From NCBI GenBank assembly GCA_026388155.1, contig JAPLKI010000018.1, positions 1-64,000 of the forward strand: 64,000 nt of DNA, written 5' to 3'. Position 1 is the first letter of the stretch, and each line of letters starts with the position of its first letter. The notes beneath the pieces are model-generated. The model made no database searches, was not told the DNA's origin, and saw only the letters and a program-made list of their open reading frames with translations. A program made the translations under genes and the position numbers. This document shows, one piece after another, positions 1 to 49,072 of this stretch. The DNA comes from Elusimicrobiota bacterium. Lineage in GTDB: Bacteria; Elusimicrobiota; Elusimicrobia; Elusimicrobiales; UBA9959.

Positions 1-8
1 GCGGGAAC

Positions 9-200
9 GGGCGCCGGCGCTTTCCCCGCGCGCTCCGGGACCGGGTTTTAAAGAAGAATCCTGAAGTCTTCCGCCGGCTCCGGAACGCGTCTGAAAGACA
101 ATGCTTTCAGACTTGAACGGTCCTCACCGTCGCGGAGCGATCCGCTCCAGACTTCAGGATTAAACCCTTTAAGGAGCGCGCGGGGAAAACACCGCCGCCC
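9..200 (+). ncRNA. Structured element E, copy 1 (unrecognised family)
   Basis: A nested set of stems is visible. Positions 21-36 and 173-188 are a perfect 16-bp inverted repeat; 43-48 pairs with 162-167; 57-69 pairs with 149-161 (13 bp); inside are hairpins 89-97/104-112, 117-120/127-130 and 134-139/143-148. An outer extension 9-13/196-200 is possible. The element is homologous to 46758-46953 on the other strand: unpaired blocks such as CGCCGGCTCCGGAACGCG and TTGAACGGTCCTC are shared almost exactly, whereas stem sequences differ by compensatory changes. The plus strand is called because copy 2 read in the same sense aligns this way, but a strand-neutral DNA element is not excluded. I do not recognise it as RNase P RNA, tmRNA, SRP RNA or a known riboswitch. 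Confidence 0.7.
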
Positions 201-249
201 TTTGACTCTTCCCTTTTTTACAACAAGTTTCTCCCTTGAATAAATGGAG

Positions 250-372
250 CGGGTGCCGCCGGAACCGGGTTAGCGGGGCCTTCGCGAACCTGAGGCTTAC
301 GCAAGCGCCGAAGGTGAGTGATGGAAGCCGGCCACGGTGTGGACGGCTGTCCCCGCGTTCCGGTCCGGCGGC
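250..372 (+). ncRNA. Structured element C, copy 1
   Basis: Pairings: 255-262 with 365-372, 264-268 with 360-364, 273-278 with 351-356, a side hairpin 279-284/309-314 with inner 295-298/303-306, and a second hairpin 327-330/344-347 with 332-335/339-342. The same three-part layout (closing stem, one arm with a GCTT...AAGC tip, one arm with a CAC-GGT-GTG tip) occurs at 20855-20991 and 46437-46575 in the opposite orientation. Bases inside stems differ in a pairing-preserving way. It follows element E by about 50 bases, as at the 46.5 kb locus. Confidence 0.65.
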
Positions 373-377
373 AGGCC

Positions 378-456
378 CAGCCCTTTTGGCCCAGGAACCA
401 TGGCTAATTAGCTCCACCTTGTATAATTGACTGTTGCCGCGAAGCCAAAAGAGCTG
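378..456. repeat. CCTTTTGG / CCAAAAGA hairpin, copy 1
   Basis: Positions 378-390 pair with 444-456 over 12 bp with one C-A mismatch. The hairpin at 52201-52239 has the same geometry with the mismatch at the same place, while the base of the stem differs compensatorily (CAGC/GCTG here, CCCGC/GCGGG there). Both are followed by a similar GGACA..GCCCCTGA-like stretch. The loop is much longer here (53 bases) and contains a TATAAT at about 422-427. Confidence 0.5.
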
Positions 457-748
457 GACAGGCCCTGATAACCCGTAAGGCCGGCTGCCTGATAAAAACA
501 TTCCTCCCTCTCACACGTGAGGCACCCGGATTTCAAGAGGGTTACTAATGAAGAGACGATGATTTTTAGGGGGCCTGTGGAAGTCGGGAAATATACACTT
601 GGAATTATATCCGTATGAGGAAGAGCGGTTAAGCGTTTAATCGAAGTAAGATGCTGTGGACGAAGTGATGCGGGTTGCGAGGGGTTGCTGATTAAGAAAC
701 GTAAAGGTTTTTTTAAAAGCCCTCCTGGGAAAAGCTTGCACCTTTCAC

Positions 749-8914: not shown

Positions 8915-9283
8915 TTAATCACTATTCTTCAGGCGCTGTTTTCGGATTTTGTCGGTTTTTCGCTTGCGGAGTTTTTTGAATTCTTTCAGGCGTCCGGAAG
9001 TGGAGGGGGAAACCTTTATTTCAATTTCATCCACCAGTTCCCTGAGAGCTATAAAGCGGTTCAGCGAACGCCGGCGTTCGCGCTGGCAGCGCACGATAAG
9101 CCCCAGCGGCGGGTATTTTAGCTGCACGGTATTCGAGGTTTTGTTTATCTTCTGACCGCCATGGCCGGAGCCGCGGATAAAATTTTCCTCCACCAGATCC
9201 AGGTTTATCTGCAGGCGGGCGATACGCGCCTTCAGAGCGTCAACCTTGGCCGGTGTGATTTCCGAAAATTCCGTGAAGTTCAT
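8915..9283 (-). CDS. Release-factor-like ribosome rescue protein (RF-1 domain, ArfB/YaeJ-like)
   Basis: 122 residues from MNFTEF. It holds the peptidyl-tRNA hydrolysis loop GSGHGGQKINKTSN, followed by a segment ending in a very basic tail (KEFKKLRKRKTDKIRKQRLKN), as in ArfB and the related PrfH/RF-like proteins. It lacks the codon-recognition domains of true RF1/RF2. The likely role is freeing stalled ribosomes. A longer frame of 182 residues exists upstream, but its first 60 residues run through a repeat-rich spacer and into the end of rel and look non-coding. No strong ribosome site precedes either candidate, so the start is uncertain. Confidence 0.8.
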   Translation of the reverse strand: MNFTEFSEITPAKVDALKARIARLQINLDLVEENFIRGSGHGGQKINKTSNTVQLKYPPLGLIVRCQRERRRSLNRFIALRELVDEIEIKVSPSTSGRLKEFKKLRKRKTDKIRKQRLKNSD

Positions 9284-9392: not shown

Positions 9393-10835
9393 CTACTCCA
9401 AGGCCTGGCCGTGTTCCCGCAGGTACTTGCGGATGTGGGAGCGGGCGCCGGCGGTTTTAACAATACCCAGCCAATCCTTTTTCGGCGCGGAGTTCCTGCG
9501 GGTGAGTATCTCGCAGATGTCGCCGCTTTTCAGTTCGTGGTCGAGTCTTGCCATTTTATTGTTCACCTTGGCGCCCACGCAGGTGTTGCCCACTTCGGAG
9601 TGTATTATGTAGGCGAAATCAATGGGGGTGGCGTGCATGGGAAGCGACTTGACCTCGCCCTTCGGGGTAAAGATAAAGATCTGGTCCAGCTCAAGGTCGG
9701 TTTTAAAGCTTTCAATAAATTCCCTGGGGCTTGAAAGGTCCTGCAGCCACTCCATCCACTGGCGCAGCCAGTTGAGTTTCTCATTTAAGTGCGCGTCCTT
9801 GCCGCCCTCGCCCATCTTATAGCGCCAGTGCGCGGCTATGCCGTATTCCGAAGTGTGGTGCATCTCATCGGTGCGGATCTGTATTTCCACCAGCTCGCCC
9901 GATGAAGCCATCACGGTGGTGTGCAGGCTGCGATAAAAGTTCATCTTCGGCACCGCGATATAATCCGTAAATGAGCCGGCGAGCGGCTTGAACACCGAAT
10001 GAACCACGCCCAGAAGGGCGTAGCAGTTTATAACCGTGTCGGTGATAAGGCGCACGCCAAGAGCGTCCTGAATGTTCTCAAAGGACGTCTCCTGCTTTTC
10101 CATCTTGCGGTATATGGAATAAAGGTTTTTGGCTCTGGCAAGTATGCGGTAGGGGACCTGTGTCGGGGCCAGGTGCGCTTCCAGCTCCGCTTTGAAATTC
10201 TCAAGCAGTTTCTCGCGCTTGGCGAAACGCAGCTGCACCTTGGCCGAGAGGCTACTGAATTCGTCGGGGTGCATATATTTGAAAGACAGGTCTTCCAGCT
10301 CGGATTTTATCTGGAACATCCCCAGGCGCTGGGCGAGAGGCGCGTAAAGAGAAAGGGTTTCGTAGCCTATTTCAAGCTGTTTTTCGCGCGGGAGAAAATT
10401 GAGCGTGCGCATATTGTGCAGGCGGTCGGCCAGCTTTATTACGATAACGCGTATATCCTTGGCCGTGGCCAGCAGCATGCGCCGCCAGTTTTCGGCCTGC
10501 GCCACGTCGCGCGAGGAGAATTTAAGCGTTTCTATCTTTGTGACGCCCTGCACCAGGTCGCAGACTTCCTGGCCGAAGTCTTTTTTTATGGCTTCGGGCG
10601 TTATCGTTGTGTCTTCCAGCACATCGTGCATAAGGCCGGCCGCCACCGTTTCCTGGTCCATCCGGAATCCCGCAAGTATTTCCGCCACGGCCTGGCAATG
10701 CGTAAAGAACAGGTCGCCCGAGGCCCGTTTCTGCTGGGCATGGGCGTCTTTTGAAAAATTCCAGGCGAGCTCAAGCAGAGTTGTGTCCTGCGTGGAATAT
10801 TCCTTGAATTTTTTAAGCAAGTCTTCCATTTCCAT
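9393..10835 (-). CDS. Bifunctional (p)ppGpp synthetase/hydrolase Rel, C-terminally short
   Basis: 480 residues. The N-terminal HD hydrolase is intact in its key residues (H46 and H70-D71 in GLMHDVLEDT). The synthetase domain follows with RAKNLYSIYRKM, GVRLITD and YRSLHTTV, and then a TGS domain (IFIFTPKGEVKSLPMHATPIDFAYIIH). The protein stops soon after a short helical stretch (ARSHIRKYLRE) and lacks the zinc-finger and ACT domains that bring full-length Rel/SpoT to about 700 residues or more. The stop is not near any frameshift sign, so this looks like a natural short form. It likely sets alarmone levels; loss of the regulatory end should alter ribosome-linked control. Confidence 0.9.
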   Translation of the reverse strand: MEMEDLLKKFKEYSTQDTTLLELAWNFSKDAHAQQKRASGDLFFTHCQAVAEILAGFRMDQETVAAGLMHDVLEDTTITPEAIKKDFGQEVCDLVQGVTKIETLKFSSRDVAQAENWRRMLLATAKDIRVIVIKLADRLHNMRTLNFLPREKQLEIGYETLSLYAPLAQRLGMFQIKSELEDLSFKYMHPDEFSSLSAKVQLRFAKREKLLENFKAELEAHLAPTQVPYRILARAKNLYSIYRKMEKQETSFENIQDALGVRLITDTVINCYALLGVVHSVFKPLAGSFTDYIAVPKMNFYRSLHTTVMASSGELVEIQIRTDEMHHTSEYGIAAHWRYKMGEGGKDAHLNEKLNWLRQWMEWLQDLSSPREFIESFKTDLELDQIFIFTPKGEVKSLPMHATPIDFAYIIHSEVGNTCVGAKVNNKMARLDHELKSGDICEILTRRNSAPKKDWLGIVKTAGARSHIRKYLREHGQALE

Positions 10836-45436: not shown

Positions 45437-46386
45437 AAACGGTCATGCTGGAGCTTACCTGGCGCTGTAATCTTGCCTGCGATTTTTGCTATCTCCGCCA
45501 TTTCGGGGTTTTAAACAAACCGGGCCCCGAAATGGATTTTAAAACTATCGCGGGTTTTATTGAAGGCTTCCGTGAAAAAACCCATTTTTATCTGAGCGGA
45601 GGAGAGCCGTTTTTAAGGGATGATATCTTTGAAATAGCTGCTTTGGCAAAGAAAAAAGGCCATGACTGCGGGATAAATACCAACGGCCTGCTCCTCGACA
45701 GACGCGCCGCCCTGCGCCTGCTAGAAAATCCGCCTGATTATGTCATTTTTTCCCTGCACGGTCCTGCCTCCGCGCACGACAGGATCACGGGGCTTAAAGG
45801 AACCTATAAAAAAATAATTTCAAACATGAAAACTTTCAGCGCTCTCGCCCGCGGGAAAACCGAGGTGATAGTAAATTGCGTTATTAACCGGGAAAACGCC
45901 GGCTTTTTGCCCGCGGTTTTCAGCGCGGCGGTGAAAGCCGGGGCCGACCGGGTGATCTTTGAGAATCTGCAATTTCTTAAAAAAAACGAGATGGCGCGGG
46001 GAAGCTGCGCTCCGATCACTCCGGTGATTGAAAGTTACAGGTTGAAAGCGGGGCTTGTGAGAGACGGATTAAAGCGCATCTCCGCGCTTGCGGCCGGAGG
46101 CAAAACCCATTTTGAAGTCAGACCTCTTATGACACGCGAAATGATCGATTCGTATTACAACGGACATATAAGGCCTGAAGGCTCCTGCGCCCGTATTCTT
46201 GACAGCGTTAATATTGAGCCGGACGGCTCAATAAGGATGTGCGTGCTGGCCGCCCGCAAAGTTTCTTCGGTGAACGATTTCAGCTGGAAAAAAATACTTG
46301 CCGCAAAGAAAAAGTTCGTTTCCGGCGGCCTGCCGTATTTATGCGCGCGCTGCTGCCACCGCTTTGATATTTTCAGGGTCTCCTGA
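45424..46386 (+). CDS. Radical SAM/SPASM-type protein
   Basis: 320 residues. The cluster motif comes right at the start: LTWRCNLACDFCYLR (C15, C19, C22). HFYLSGGEPFLRDD and SLHGPASAHDRITG follow, and the C-terminus has CARILDSVNIEPDGSIRMCV and CARCC, a SPASM-like auxiliary cluster site. It resembles other maturases or sugar-modifying SPASM enzymes. It is coupled to the glycosyltransferase gene by overlap. It was considered as the missing HxsC, but its layout is generic and an unrelated gene and a palindrome lie between. Confidence 0.82.
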   Translation: MQKIKTVMLELTWRCNLACDFCYLRHFGVLNKPGPEMDFKTIAGFIEGFREKTHFYLSGGEPFLRDDIFEIAALAKKKGHDCGINTNGLLLDRRAALRLLENPPDYVIFSLHGPASAHDRITGLKGTYKKIISNMKTFSALARGKTEVIVNCVINRENAGFLPAVFSAAVKAGADRVIFENLQFLKKNEMARGSCAPITPVIESYRLKAGLVRDGLKRISALAAGGKTHFEVRPLMTREMIDSYYNGHIRPEGSCARILDSVNIEPDGSIRMCVLAARKVSSVNDFSWKKILAAKKKFVSGGLPYLCARCCHRFDIFRVS

Positions 46387-46436
46387 CTTCCGCAATGGGA
46401 CACCTGAAACCTTAAACAGCGGCCTGTCCTATGTCG

Positions 46437-46575
46437 GCGCGGGGCCTGCCGGGGAGCTGGAACGCAAAACCAGGGTCGGGACACACCGTGTCCGCCCTTC
46501 GCTTCCTCGCCCTCCGCGCTTTGCAAGCGTCGGGCTCCGGAGCGTTTTGCTTATCCAGTTCCCCGTCACCCGCGC
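46437..46575 (-). ncRNA. Structured element C, copy 3
   Basis: Pairings: 46437-46443 with 46569-46575; 46451-46455 with 46560-46564; 46457-46460 with 46555-46558; 46464-46470 with 46544-46550 (GCAAAAC/GTTTTGC); 46479-46484 with 46488-46493 (GGACAC/GTGTCC); 46500-46506 with 46539-46544. Against copy 2 the arms change in pairs while the ACC apex and CCAGGGTCGGG, CCGCCCTTC blocks stay. It starts about 50 bases after the end of the radical SAM gene. Confidence 0.68.
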
Positions 46576-46757
46576 AGATTATAGTAGCGGCTTTGCTATG
46601 TTATAGATAATCCCGCCCTTATTGATGATACGGCGCGGTTGCCCGCCCATCGGCCGCAACCGGCTTATACAAAACAACTCTTATTCATTATTGGCGGGTA
46701 ATTATGCTTTACCTTAAAAGGGCGGGGACACCATATAAAAAAATCAACAGAGCATTT

Positions 46758-46953
46758 GGTTGCCGGTGGGTTCCCTTAGCGCTCCTTATAGGGTTTAATC
46801 CCGTGGTCTGGAGCGAATCCTTATCATTTAGGACGGCGAGGACCGTTCAAGCCGCCCCGCTATGCGGGCCGGCGCGTTCCGGAGCCGGCGCAAGACCACG
46901 GGATTCTTCTTCAAAACCCGGTCTTGGAGCGCTAAGGGAATCTGCCGGCAACC
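46758..46953 (-). ncRNA. Structured element E, copy 2
   Basis: Outer stem 46758-46766/46945-46953 (9 bp), then 46771-46785/46926-46940 (15 bp, perfect), 46791-46796/46914-46919, and 46797-46809/46893-46905 (13 bp, perfect). Internal hairpins match copy 1 in position but not in sequence: the stem written GTCTGAAAG/CTTTCAGAC in copy 1 is GCCG.CCCGC/GCGGG.CGGC here. On the minus strand it reads ...GACCGGGTTTTGAAGAAGAA and TTGAACGGTCCTC like copy 1. It ends 31 bases from the stop of the deacetylase-like gene. Confidence 0.72.
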
Positions 46954-46984
46954 ACTTTGGGGCGGTAGTGGAAGACGGGAGAAA

Positions 46985-47731: not shown

Positions 47732-49072
47732 TCACTTGTGACCTGTGACCTGCAACTTGTGACTATCTTTAAGGTACGGGTCCTTTCCTGAATAATTCCC
47801 GCTCTCCGCCCGGGCCATGAAACGGCTGCCGCCCAGGCATCTTAATCGGAAAATGCAGCTGCGGCAGCTGCGAAGCCGGGCCGGGCCGCTTATGTTTTTC
47901 AAAAGGCGGCTGTTCCATGCTTTAAAGGGTTCCGCGCCCAGTTTTTTTTGAATGTAATAGCTCGGCTTGTAAAAACCCCGCGGGTCAAGCACCAGGCGGG
48001 TGTGACCGTCGTCAAAACTGGCTCCCAGAAAAAGCGGGGCCTGCCTTTTTTTAAAAAGGCAGAACGGGACCGGGTTCGCGAAAAGTGTCCGCGGCTTGAG
48101 CCCCAGGCGCGGCTCAAGGCGGCGGACCAGGCGGCGCAGGTCTTTTAGCGTTATCCGGAATTCTTTCGGGAGGCTGGTGTTTGACCCCATGGGCCTGTAA
48201 AGCTCCCATATTTCTGCCTTCAAGCCTTCAGCTAAAGCGCGGTATTTTTCAAAATTAGTTATCAGCTCTTTTGAAATAACAGTTCCAAGCCGCAAAACCC
48301 CTATGCCGGAGCGGCGAAGCAGGCGGATATTTTTTATTTTTTTTGAGAACAGGCCGCGCGTCCCGGTGGCGGCGGCCTCGCTTTCGGCGTCGCAGCCCTG
48401 CATGGACACCAGTATATTGTCTATAAATGGGGCGGCCTTCTTTATCAGTTTGGCGTCCAGCAGGGTGGCGTTCGTGTTCACCAGCACATAGAAACCCAGT
48501 TTTTTGGCCGCGGCCAGCGCCTCTAAAATTTTGGGATGAAGGAAAGGCTCTCCGCCGGTGAAACGGATGTTTTTCACTCCCAGCGCGCGCGCGGCCGCCA
48601 GATGAGAGCGTATTTCAGGCAGCGAAAGCTTGGCGGTAAGGGAACCGGAGGAGCAGACGGCGCAGGCAAGATTGCAGCGACGGTTCACTTCAATAACTAT
48701 TTCCAGCGGGATTTCAAGGACGGGTTTAAGGCCGATACCCGCCGGGCCCAGGAAAATAGAACCCGGCTCAAGGCCCGGGCAAAGCCGGCTAAGGCGGCAG
48801 CGGGAGCAAATATCCAGCCTTGCCGCTTTGCGCCGGGACGATTTCGGCCGCAAAATATGGTCGTAGGCATCCGGCAGGAAGCAGAAGGGGACGCCTTTTA
48901 CAAAAACGCTGAAACGGTTTTCATAGGTATTAAGAGCCCCGTAAAGGAAAGCGCGCGCGGTTTCAAGTTCCGTCCGCCCGGGGCGCACGGAGATGCATAG
49001 CGTTCTTTCTTTCCGGTTAATAAGCGCGCTTACCCCCGCCATAGGTTTTATAAGTTTTATTTCAGAGCCCAT
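47732..49072 (-). CDS. Radical SAM protein with N-terminal Cys-rich domain
   Basis: 446 residues. An N-terminal domain of about 120 residues ends with a DICSRCRLSRLCPG cluster (C89, C92, C98) and comes before the radical SAM motif VNRRCNLACAVC (C133, C137, C140). RFTGGEPFLHPK and LVSMQGCDAE follow, then a SPASM-like CRSCIFRLRC. The last residues (HKLQVTGHK) are translated spacer repeat. The order, with extra Cys sites on both sides, suggests at least two clusters. Start overlaps the stop of the gene at 49057 by 16 bases, so the two are coupled. Confidence 0.8.
   Translation of the reverse strand: MGSEIKLIKPMAGVSALINRKERTLCISVRPGRTELETARAFLYGALNTYENRFSVFVKGVPFCFLPDAYDHILRPKSSRRKAARLDICSRCRLSRLCPGLEPGSIFLGPAGIGLKPVLEIPLEIVIEVNRRCNLACAVCSSGSLTAKLSLPEIRSHLAAARALGVKNIRFTGGEPFLHPKILEALAAAKKLGFYVLVNTNATLLDAKLIKKAAPFIDNILVSMQGCDAESEAAATGTRGLFSKKIKNIRLLRRSGIGVLRLGTVISKELITNFEKYRALAEGLKAEIWELYRPMGSNTSLPKEFRITLKDLRRLVRRLEPRLGLKPRTLFANPVPFCLFKKRQAPLFLGASFDDGHTRLVLDPRGFYKPSYYIQKKLGAEPFKAWNSRLLKNISGPARLRSCRSCIFRLRCLGGSRFMARAESGNYSGKDPYLKDSHKLQVTGHK
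47735..47768. repeat. Word repeat at a gene end
   Basis: CACTTGTGACCTGTGACCTG and CAACTTGTGACTATC: the CACAAGTCACAAG word family in reverse. It encodes the C-terminal tail of the radical SAM protein. Confidence 0.6.

Follow-up and report, generated by a model that had tools for sequence, protein, structure and literature searches.

This contig begins with a palindromic stretch that raises a question of cause: do the paired changes in its stems reflect selection on an RNA fold, or do they mark a hairpin-forming element that moves? An earlier note on the window (the whole stretch of DNA analysed, 64,000 nucleotides from an Elusimicrobiota bacterium) had described two diverged copies, one at positions 9-200, at the very beginning of the contig (C18:1), and one in the reverse complement of 46758-46953, and had read them as a selected fold or a hairpin-transposing element outside any named family. 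The letters at both places are as it quoted them, and copy 2 could be aligned to copy 1 by BLAST (query 13-194, 74% identity, E 4e-27). Also as described there, the 13-bp stem is replaced on both sides, AATCCTGAAGTCT in copy 1 against AATCCCGTGGTCT in copy 2, and the inner hairpin is likewise replaced. The blocks that it took to be unpaired are indeed nearly identical, but in a wider alignment they partly form short conserved helices (CGGC/GCCG, GGA/UCC), and one of them, AATCC, belongs in the 13-bp stem. Both copies were predicted to be far more stable than 200 dinucleotide shuffles (folding energy z -7.4 and -8.6), and in both the pairing continues in arms beyond the core (Table 1). In the near-identical copy L034, 3 of the 21 positions of the copy 1 outer arm (9-29/180-200) are not Watson-Crick pairs.

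Table 1. Parts of the two window copies, in window coordinates
Feature	Position	Strand	Basis
Copy 1 conserved core	30..179	- (folded strand = minus)	R1 match C18:30-179:-, 162 bits
Copy 1 outer arm, low-coordinate side	9..29	.	pairs with 180-200
Copy 1 outer arm, high-coordinate side	180..200	.	pairs with 9-29
Copy 1 helix GGGTTT	43..48, partner 162-167	-	helix 2: 6 pairs, 98% of cells paired, 74 copies
Copy 1 13-bp stem AATCCTGAAGTCT	57..69, partner 149-161	-	helix 3: both-sided changes in 13/13 pairs
Copy 1 tip: GGA/UCC helix, asymmetric loop, inner hairpin 89-97/104-112	82..123	-	helices 7, 8
Copy 1 second small hairpin TCGC/GCGA	130..140	-	helix 5: both-sided changes in 4/4 pairs
Copy 2 conserved core	46779..46932	+ (folded strand = plus)	R1 match C18:46779-46932:+, 170 bits
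Copy 2 outer arm	46757..46778	.	22-bp arm TGGTTGCCGGTGGGTTCCCTTA, 3 G.U (L031)
Copy 2 outer arm, other side	46933..46954	.	L031

The window copies belong to a hairpin family with about 20 copies in the source genome, where a DNA search of the same assembly gave 23 matches and a covariance model built on 13 intact copies gave 22, contig-end fragments included. A refined model, run on 341 Elusimicrobiota genomes, found matches in 41; a single family accounts for 36 of these, and the remaining 5 belong to others. In the genomes with fuller listings the copies numbered 22 (source), 8, 9, 7, 24, 17, 13, 7, 26, 20, 5 and 5. The covariance-model search of Elusimicrobia genomes thus returned many copies, far beyond the two from which the question had started. 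The element is about 200-320 bp long and, by crude ORF calls, nearly all tested copies are intergenic. An exact-pattern scan of named genomes hit Elusimicrobia records only (GWA2_51_34, UBA9634, RA.bin131), no match to window copy 1 was found on sequenced plasmids or phages, and the tip is conserved in several Elusimicrobia families.

A viral contig (L314) holds the central motif twice (8980-9083 and 10216-10380, E 1e-6 and 1.5e-5), followed by a hairpin such as TTTTCTTTGGTTACTTTTCTTTTTGGCGAGACAAAAGAAAGTAACC, and a similar hairpin follows the element in f23/f25 Elusimicrobia copies. We take the neighbours on that contig to be a gene for a MurB-like protein and a Mu-like transposase, which suggests a proteobacterial prophage.

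From the outside inward, the fold consists of the outer arm, a GGGUUU/AAACCC helix, the 13-bp helix and a junction bearing two hairpins; in one of these an asymmetric loop, UGUYUGA facing GA, is conserved beside the GGA/UCC and CGGC/GCCG helices. Across 74 distinct copies, 96.3% of cells were standard pairs and 41 of 47 pairs showed changes on both sides, counts that are biased towards the model, to which the alignments were fitted, and that cover the model alone, of which the outer arms are not part. The covariation score was 0.426, against 0.128 when shuffled and 0.05-0.09 with the partners slid (74 copies; 54 sequences in an earlier alignment). Tandem G.A pairs recur in the inner hairpin. 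The tip loop comes in two concerted forms, TGAG with CGAG (59 copies) and CAAG with CGCG (30 copies), mixtures being almost absent; copy 1 has the latter form on its folded strand. Such a concerted switch is not predicted by copying from arm to arm. Judging from its sequence, the conserved loop may be kink-turn-like.

A palindrome constrained only as duplex DNA is expected to show symmetrical mismatch types. On strand M, as we term the folded strand (minus for copy 1, plus for copy 2), the mismatches among 1,699 arm pairs from 114 copies were G.U 96 times against A.C 14, G.A 42 against C.T 2, and G.G 19 against C.C 1, figures that are not event counts, since the copies share ancestry. Wobble and G.A mismatches thus lie almost all on one strand, so that what is constrained is a folded single strand, in copy 1 the minus strand: the fold of one strand is under constraint.

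Outward of the core, most copies carry arms that pair perfectly or nearly so, as a rule over 17-25 bp, and that often differ from those of other copies. Between orthologues with flanks 79-96% identical, the arms had undergone 39 double changes, 25 of them via transversion, and 9 one-sided changes to G.U. Stepwise compensation is expected to leave more intermediates, and double changes by transversion with so few G.U intermediates fit DNA-level copying of an arm from its partner; replication-time copying of one arm from the other is the simplest account of their co-change. The compensatory stems probably have two causes: correction at the DNA level, most pronounced in the arms, and selection on one strand, best seen in the loops and in the types of mismatch. 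The initial reading of a selected fold or a hairpin-transposing element therefore stands as regards the missing Rfam family, the many copies and the strong covariation, but the paired changes on which it drew are by themselves no proof of RNA. An origin of the private arms by inverted target duplication at insertion, to which L023 had pointed, was set aside as unproven, since L023 can equally be read as the deletion of a hairpin between CTTT repeats and most empty sites have no arm.

Comparison of orthologous sites bears on movement. Between the genes that we take to be tgt and yajC (the names are our own reading), the element is present in G129 and G148 and missing in at least 14 congeners, and further sites that hold it in G129 lack it in G148, G130, G126 or G135. 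The empty-site species are 5-20% diverged, which blurs the exact junctions and makes loss and gain inseparable at some sites; no target duplication was seen at the compared occupied and empty sites, in relatives too diverged for exact junctions. Several species share some occupied sites, and transposition is thus infrequent. At one locus (L132) the cores of G148 and G130 lie the other way round from that of G129, the flanks matching at 0.79-0.90 identity only if the core is taken as inverted, and at another (L129) the core of G126 is inverted as judged by eye. Inversion in place argues against a role tied to the transcription of one neighbour. In 24 of 29 cases (crude gene calls, orthologous loci included), the next gene past the 3' side of strand M was directed towards the element. 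At the tgt-yajC site of G130 (L163), an unrelated palindrome, GGGGACGCTGCTTAGTTTTTGAGTTGTTTG with an inverted copy, stands where G129 and G148 hold the element.

The copies also sit among other repeats. Copy 1 and copy L020 are enclosed by a larger repeat (window 1-590 in the case of copy 1) with the ends CTGACTTCCGCAATG...GCGGAAGTC and a palindromic interior, and a matching end lies near copy 2 (window about 46380-46640). The source genome yields 18 matches to the interior (window 230-600), and window about 46380-46650 has many in two congeners; the larger repeat may have carried the near-identical copies of the source genome. A second structured hairpin family, GAGGCTTGCGTAAGCGC...GCCACGGTGTGGC...GTACCCGGAGA, resembles this interior. 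In other species it stands at the same sites in place of the element (L303, L310, L311, L296), and at L299 it is nested within the element, so that several hairpin families share sites and nest. Some g1, g9 and g13 copies have in common a GC-box and TATA-like stretch directly 5' of the folded strand, and the g12 copies showed no upstream sequence in common.

Several further repeats were recorded. At L010, L014, L017, L021 and L269 the element contains a small nested insert with inverted repeats, AATACTTGCGTAGGTGCCGTATC...GATACGGCACC. Just 5' of the folded strand, many g1/g9 copies (L005, L006, L009, L024, L267 and others) have the stretch GGGYGGGTAAATAT..GATGTATCG..GGGYGGGGACATATTATAAA, which could be a promoter or a portion of a longer element. 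Two congeners match a short tract at window about 47733-47766, CACTTGTGACCTGTGACCTGCAACTTGTGAC, dozens of times. We also considered whether pairs of inverted copies (L155, L160) delimit autonomous units, but the genes enclosed look ordinary.

We lean towards the reading that these are non-autonomous, MITE-like mobile structured repeats, one strand of which folds into a long hairpin whose branched tip is conserved. It draws on the number of copies (about 20 at home, up to 26 elsewhere), the empty and occupied sites and the inverted cores, and equally on the strand-asymmetric mismatches, the covariation, the concerted loop switch and the double arm changes. The folded strand, as RNA or as single-stranded DNA exposed in replication, would be recognised through its tip by a mobilising enzyme encoded elsewhere, and the fold would be maintained because it serves mobility, not for the sake of an adjacent gene. 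The outer arms would stay complementary largely by template-directed copying from the partner arm, and the inversions would come from exchange between the inverted arms. No mobilising enzyme was found among the Y1 transposases tested, which do not track the element. Probably, then, the element is not the regulator of one gene but a small mobile repeat of a new variety. A broader version strikes us as speculative, though worth keeping in mind: an undescribed superfamily of mobile structured hairpins, with a kink-turn-like tip common to several Elusimicrobia families and at least one proteobacterial-looking contig, in which a factor would bind the folded strand, either as RNA in a SINE-like process or as single-stranded DNA, and the hairpins would nest, swap sites with other hairpins and flip between self-correcting arms.

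Much of the same evidence could be claimed for a multicopy structured noncoding RNA that acts as RNA, from its own gene or within mRNAs, through a kink-turn-like protein-binding tip, with mobility incidental. The wobble and tandem G.A pairs confined to one strand, the concerted non-canonical pairs, the tip kept in several families and the GC-box/TATA-like stretch of some g1, g9 and g13 copies all speak for it; yet the core flips relative to the same genes, the g12 copies lack a common upstream sequence and most orthologous sites are empty, and we think such an RNA unlikely. As to the chemistry of the folded strand, G.U and tandem G.A pairs fit RNA best, and flipping, together with the lack of common upstream sequence in g12, fits DNA best. 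The flips also weigh against a cis-acting element of the neighbouring genes, be it a terminator, an attenuator or a 3'-end stabiliser, because its orientation is not fixed at orthologous loci. Most copies have no T run after the arm, the neighbours are unrelated and the sites are mostly empty in relatives, so that a cis role appears very improbable, even with nearly all tested copies intergenic and most genes 3' of the folded strand directed towards it (both by crude ORF calls).

That the palindromes merely look structured, their paired changes arising wholly by template switching while the fold goes unselected, would account for the double arm changes by transversion without intermediates. 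It leaves the conserved loops, the one-strand mismatch bias and the concerted non-canonical pairs unexplained, and the strand asymmetry contradicts it unless that asymmetry is mutational; we regard it as quite improbable. We hold it to be highly unlikely that the element is a HEARO/omega RNA or belongs, as a REP-type repeat, to an IS200/IS605-like Y1 (RAYT) transposase. Y1 transposase genes do occur in 49 of 59 genomes of the family, and a truncated Y1-like ORF (Pfam score below cut-off) was found about 80 bp away from one f23 copy, but none of 20 Y1 genes had the element within about 1.5 kb, and no Y1 gene was found in G157, which has 24 copies, or in G158. With no such linkage, Y1/RAYT was rejected as the mobiliser. 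The comparison with Rfam proposed in the earlier note matched no known family: across the whole window no Rfam 15 family reached its gathering threshold, and permissive E-values (up to 1-5) gave no match either, HEARO included.

For the favoured reading of a mobile structured repeat, the large comparative set matters in that it allows two usually confounded causes of paired change to be separated, selection on one strand and arm-to-arm copying of DNA. Covariation alone, commonly accepted as proof that an RNA is structured, can also come about in mobile palindromes. Should the folded strand be the mobile substrate, the family would be a new type of non-autonomous element in a phylum with little experimental work, and its conserved tip would offer a concrete bait for enzyme discovery.

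A limited open-access search of the literature on the motif and on Elusimicrobia palindromes returned nothing relevant, and within such a search we know of no description of an element in which selection on one strand, concerted non-canonical pairs, private self-correcting arms and flipping in place occur together. Integron attC sites, whose folded bottom strand is the substrate, lie in arrays beside an integron integrase; copies of the element are dispersed instead. HEARO/omega RNAs of IscB/TnpB systems, which had been kept as a candidate at the outset, are likewise structured, dispersed and often without a gene, but the element gave no covariance-model match to them, and no IscB/TnpB-like gene was recognised among the neighbouring ORFs read beside inspected copies. 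REP palindromes carry a GTAG or CGTC tag. The REP/REPIN and RAYT system (PMC3733652) resembles the present one in its dispersed palindromes within genomes that also hold Y1 transposases; its palindromes are 20-40 bp long, against about 200 bp here with a branched tip (core about 150 nt) and no linkage to Y1 genes. Small inversions at hairpins are known from chloroplast genomes (PMC9887819), where too related genomes differ in the orientation of the loop region that the inverted arms enclose; the hairpins there are ordinary intergenic ones, whereas the present family is dispersed and its core is conserved. Small mobile bacterial repeats such as ERIC/IRU, RUP, Correia/NEMIS, YPAL and RPE (PMC2229807), most of about 100-200 bp, are like the element non-coding, intergenic and multicopy, with inverted arms, long stem-loops and no transposase of their own. 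In keeping with such MITE-like repeats, its copies are dispersed and intergenic, have terminal inverted repeats and a stable stem-loop, and show insertion polymorphism; no target duplication was seen, and a transposase search that covered Y1 turned up no parent IS. The sequence of its terminal arms is mostly private to each copy, and what sets it apart from those repeats is that the arms differ between copies and co-change, together with one-strand selection, concerted non-canonical pairs and cores that flip in place.
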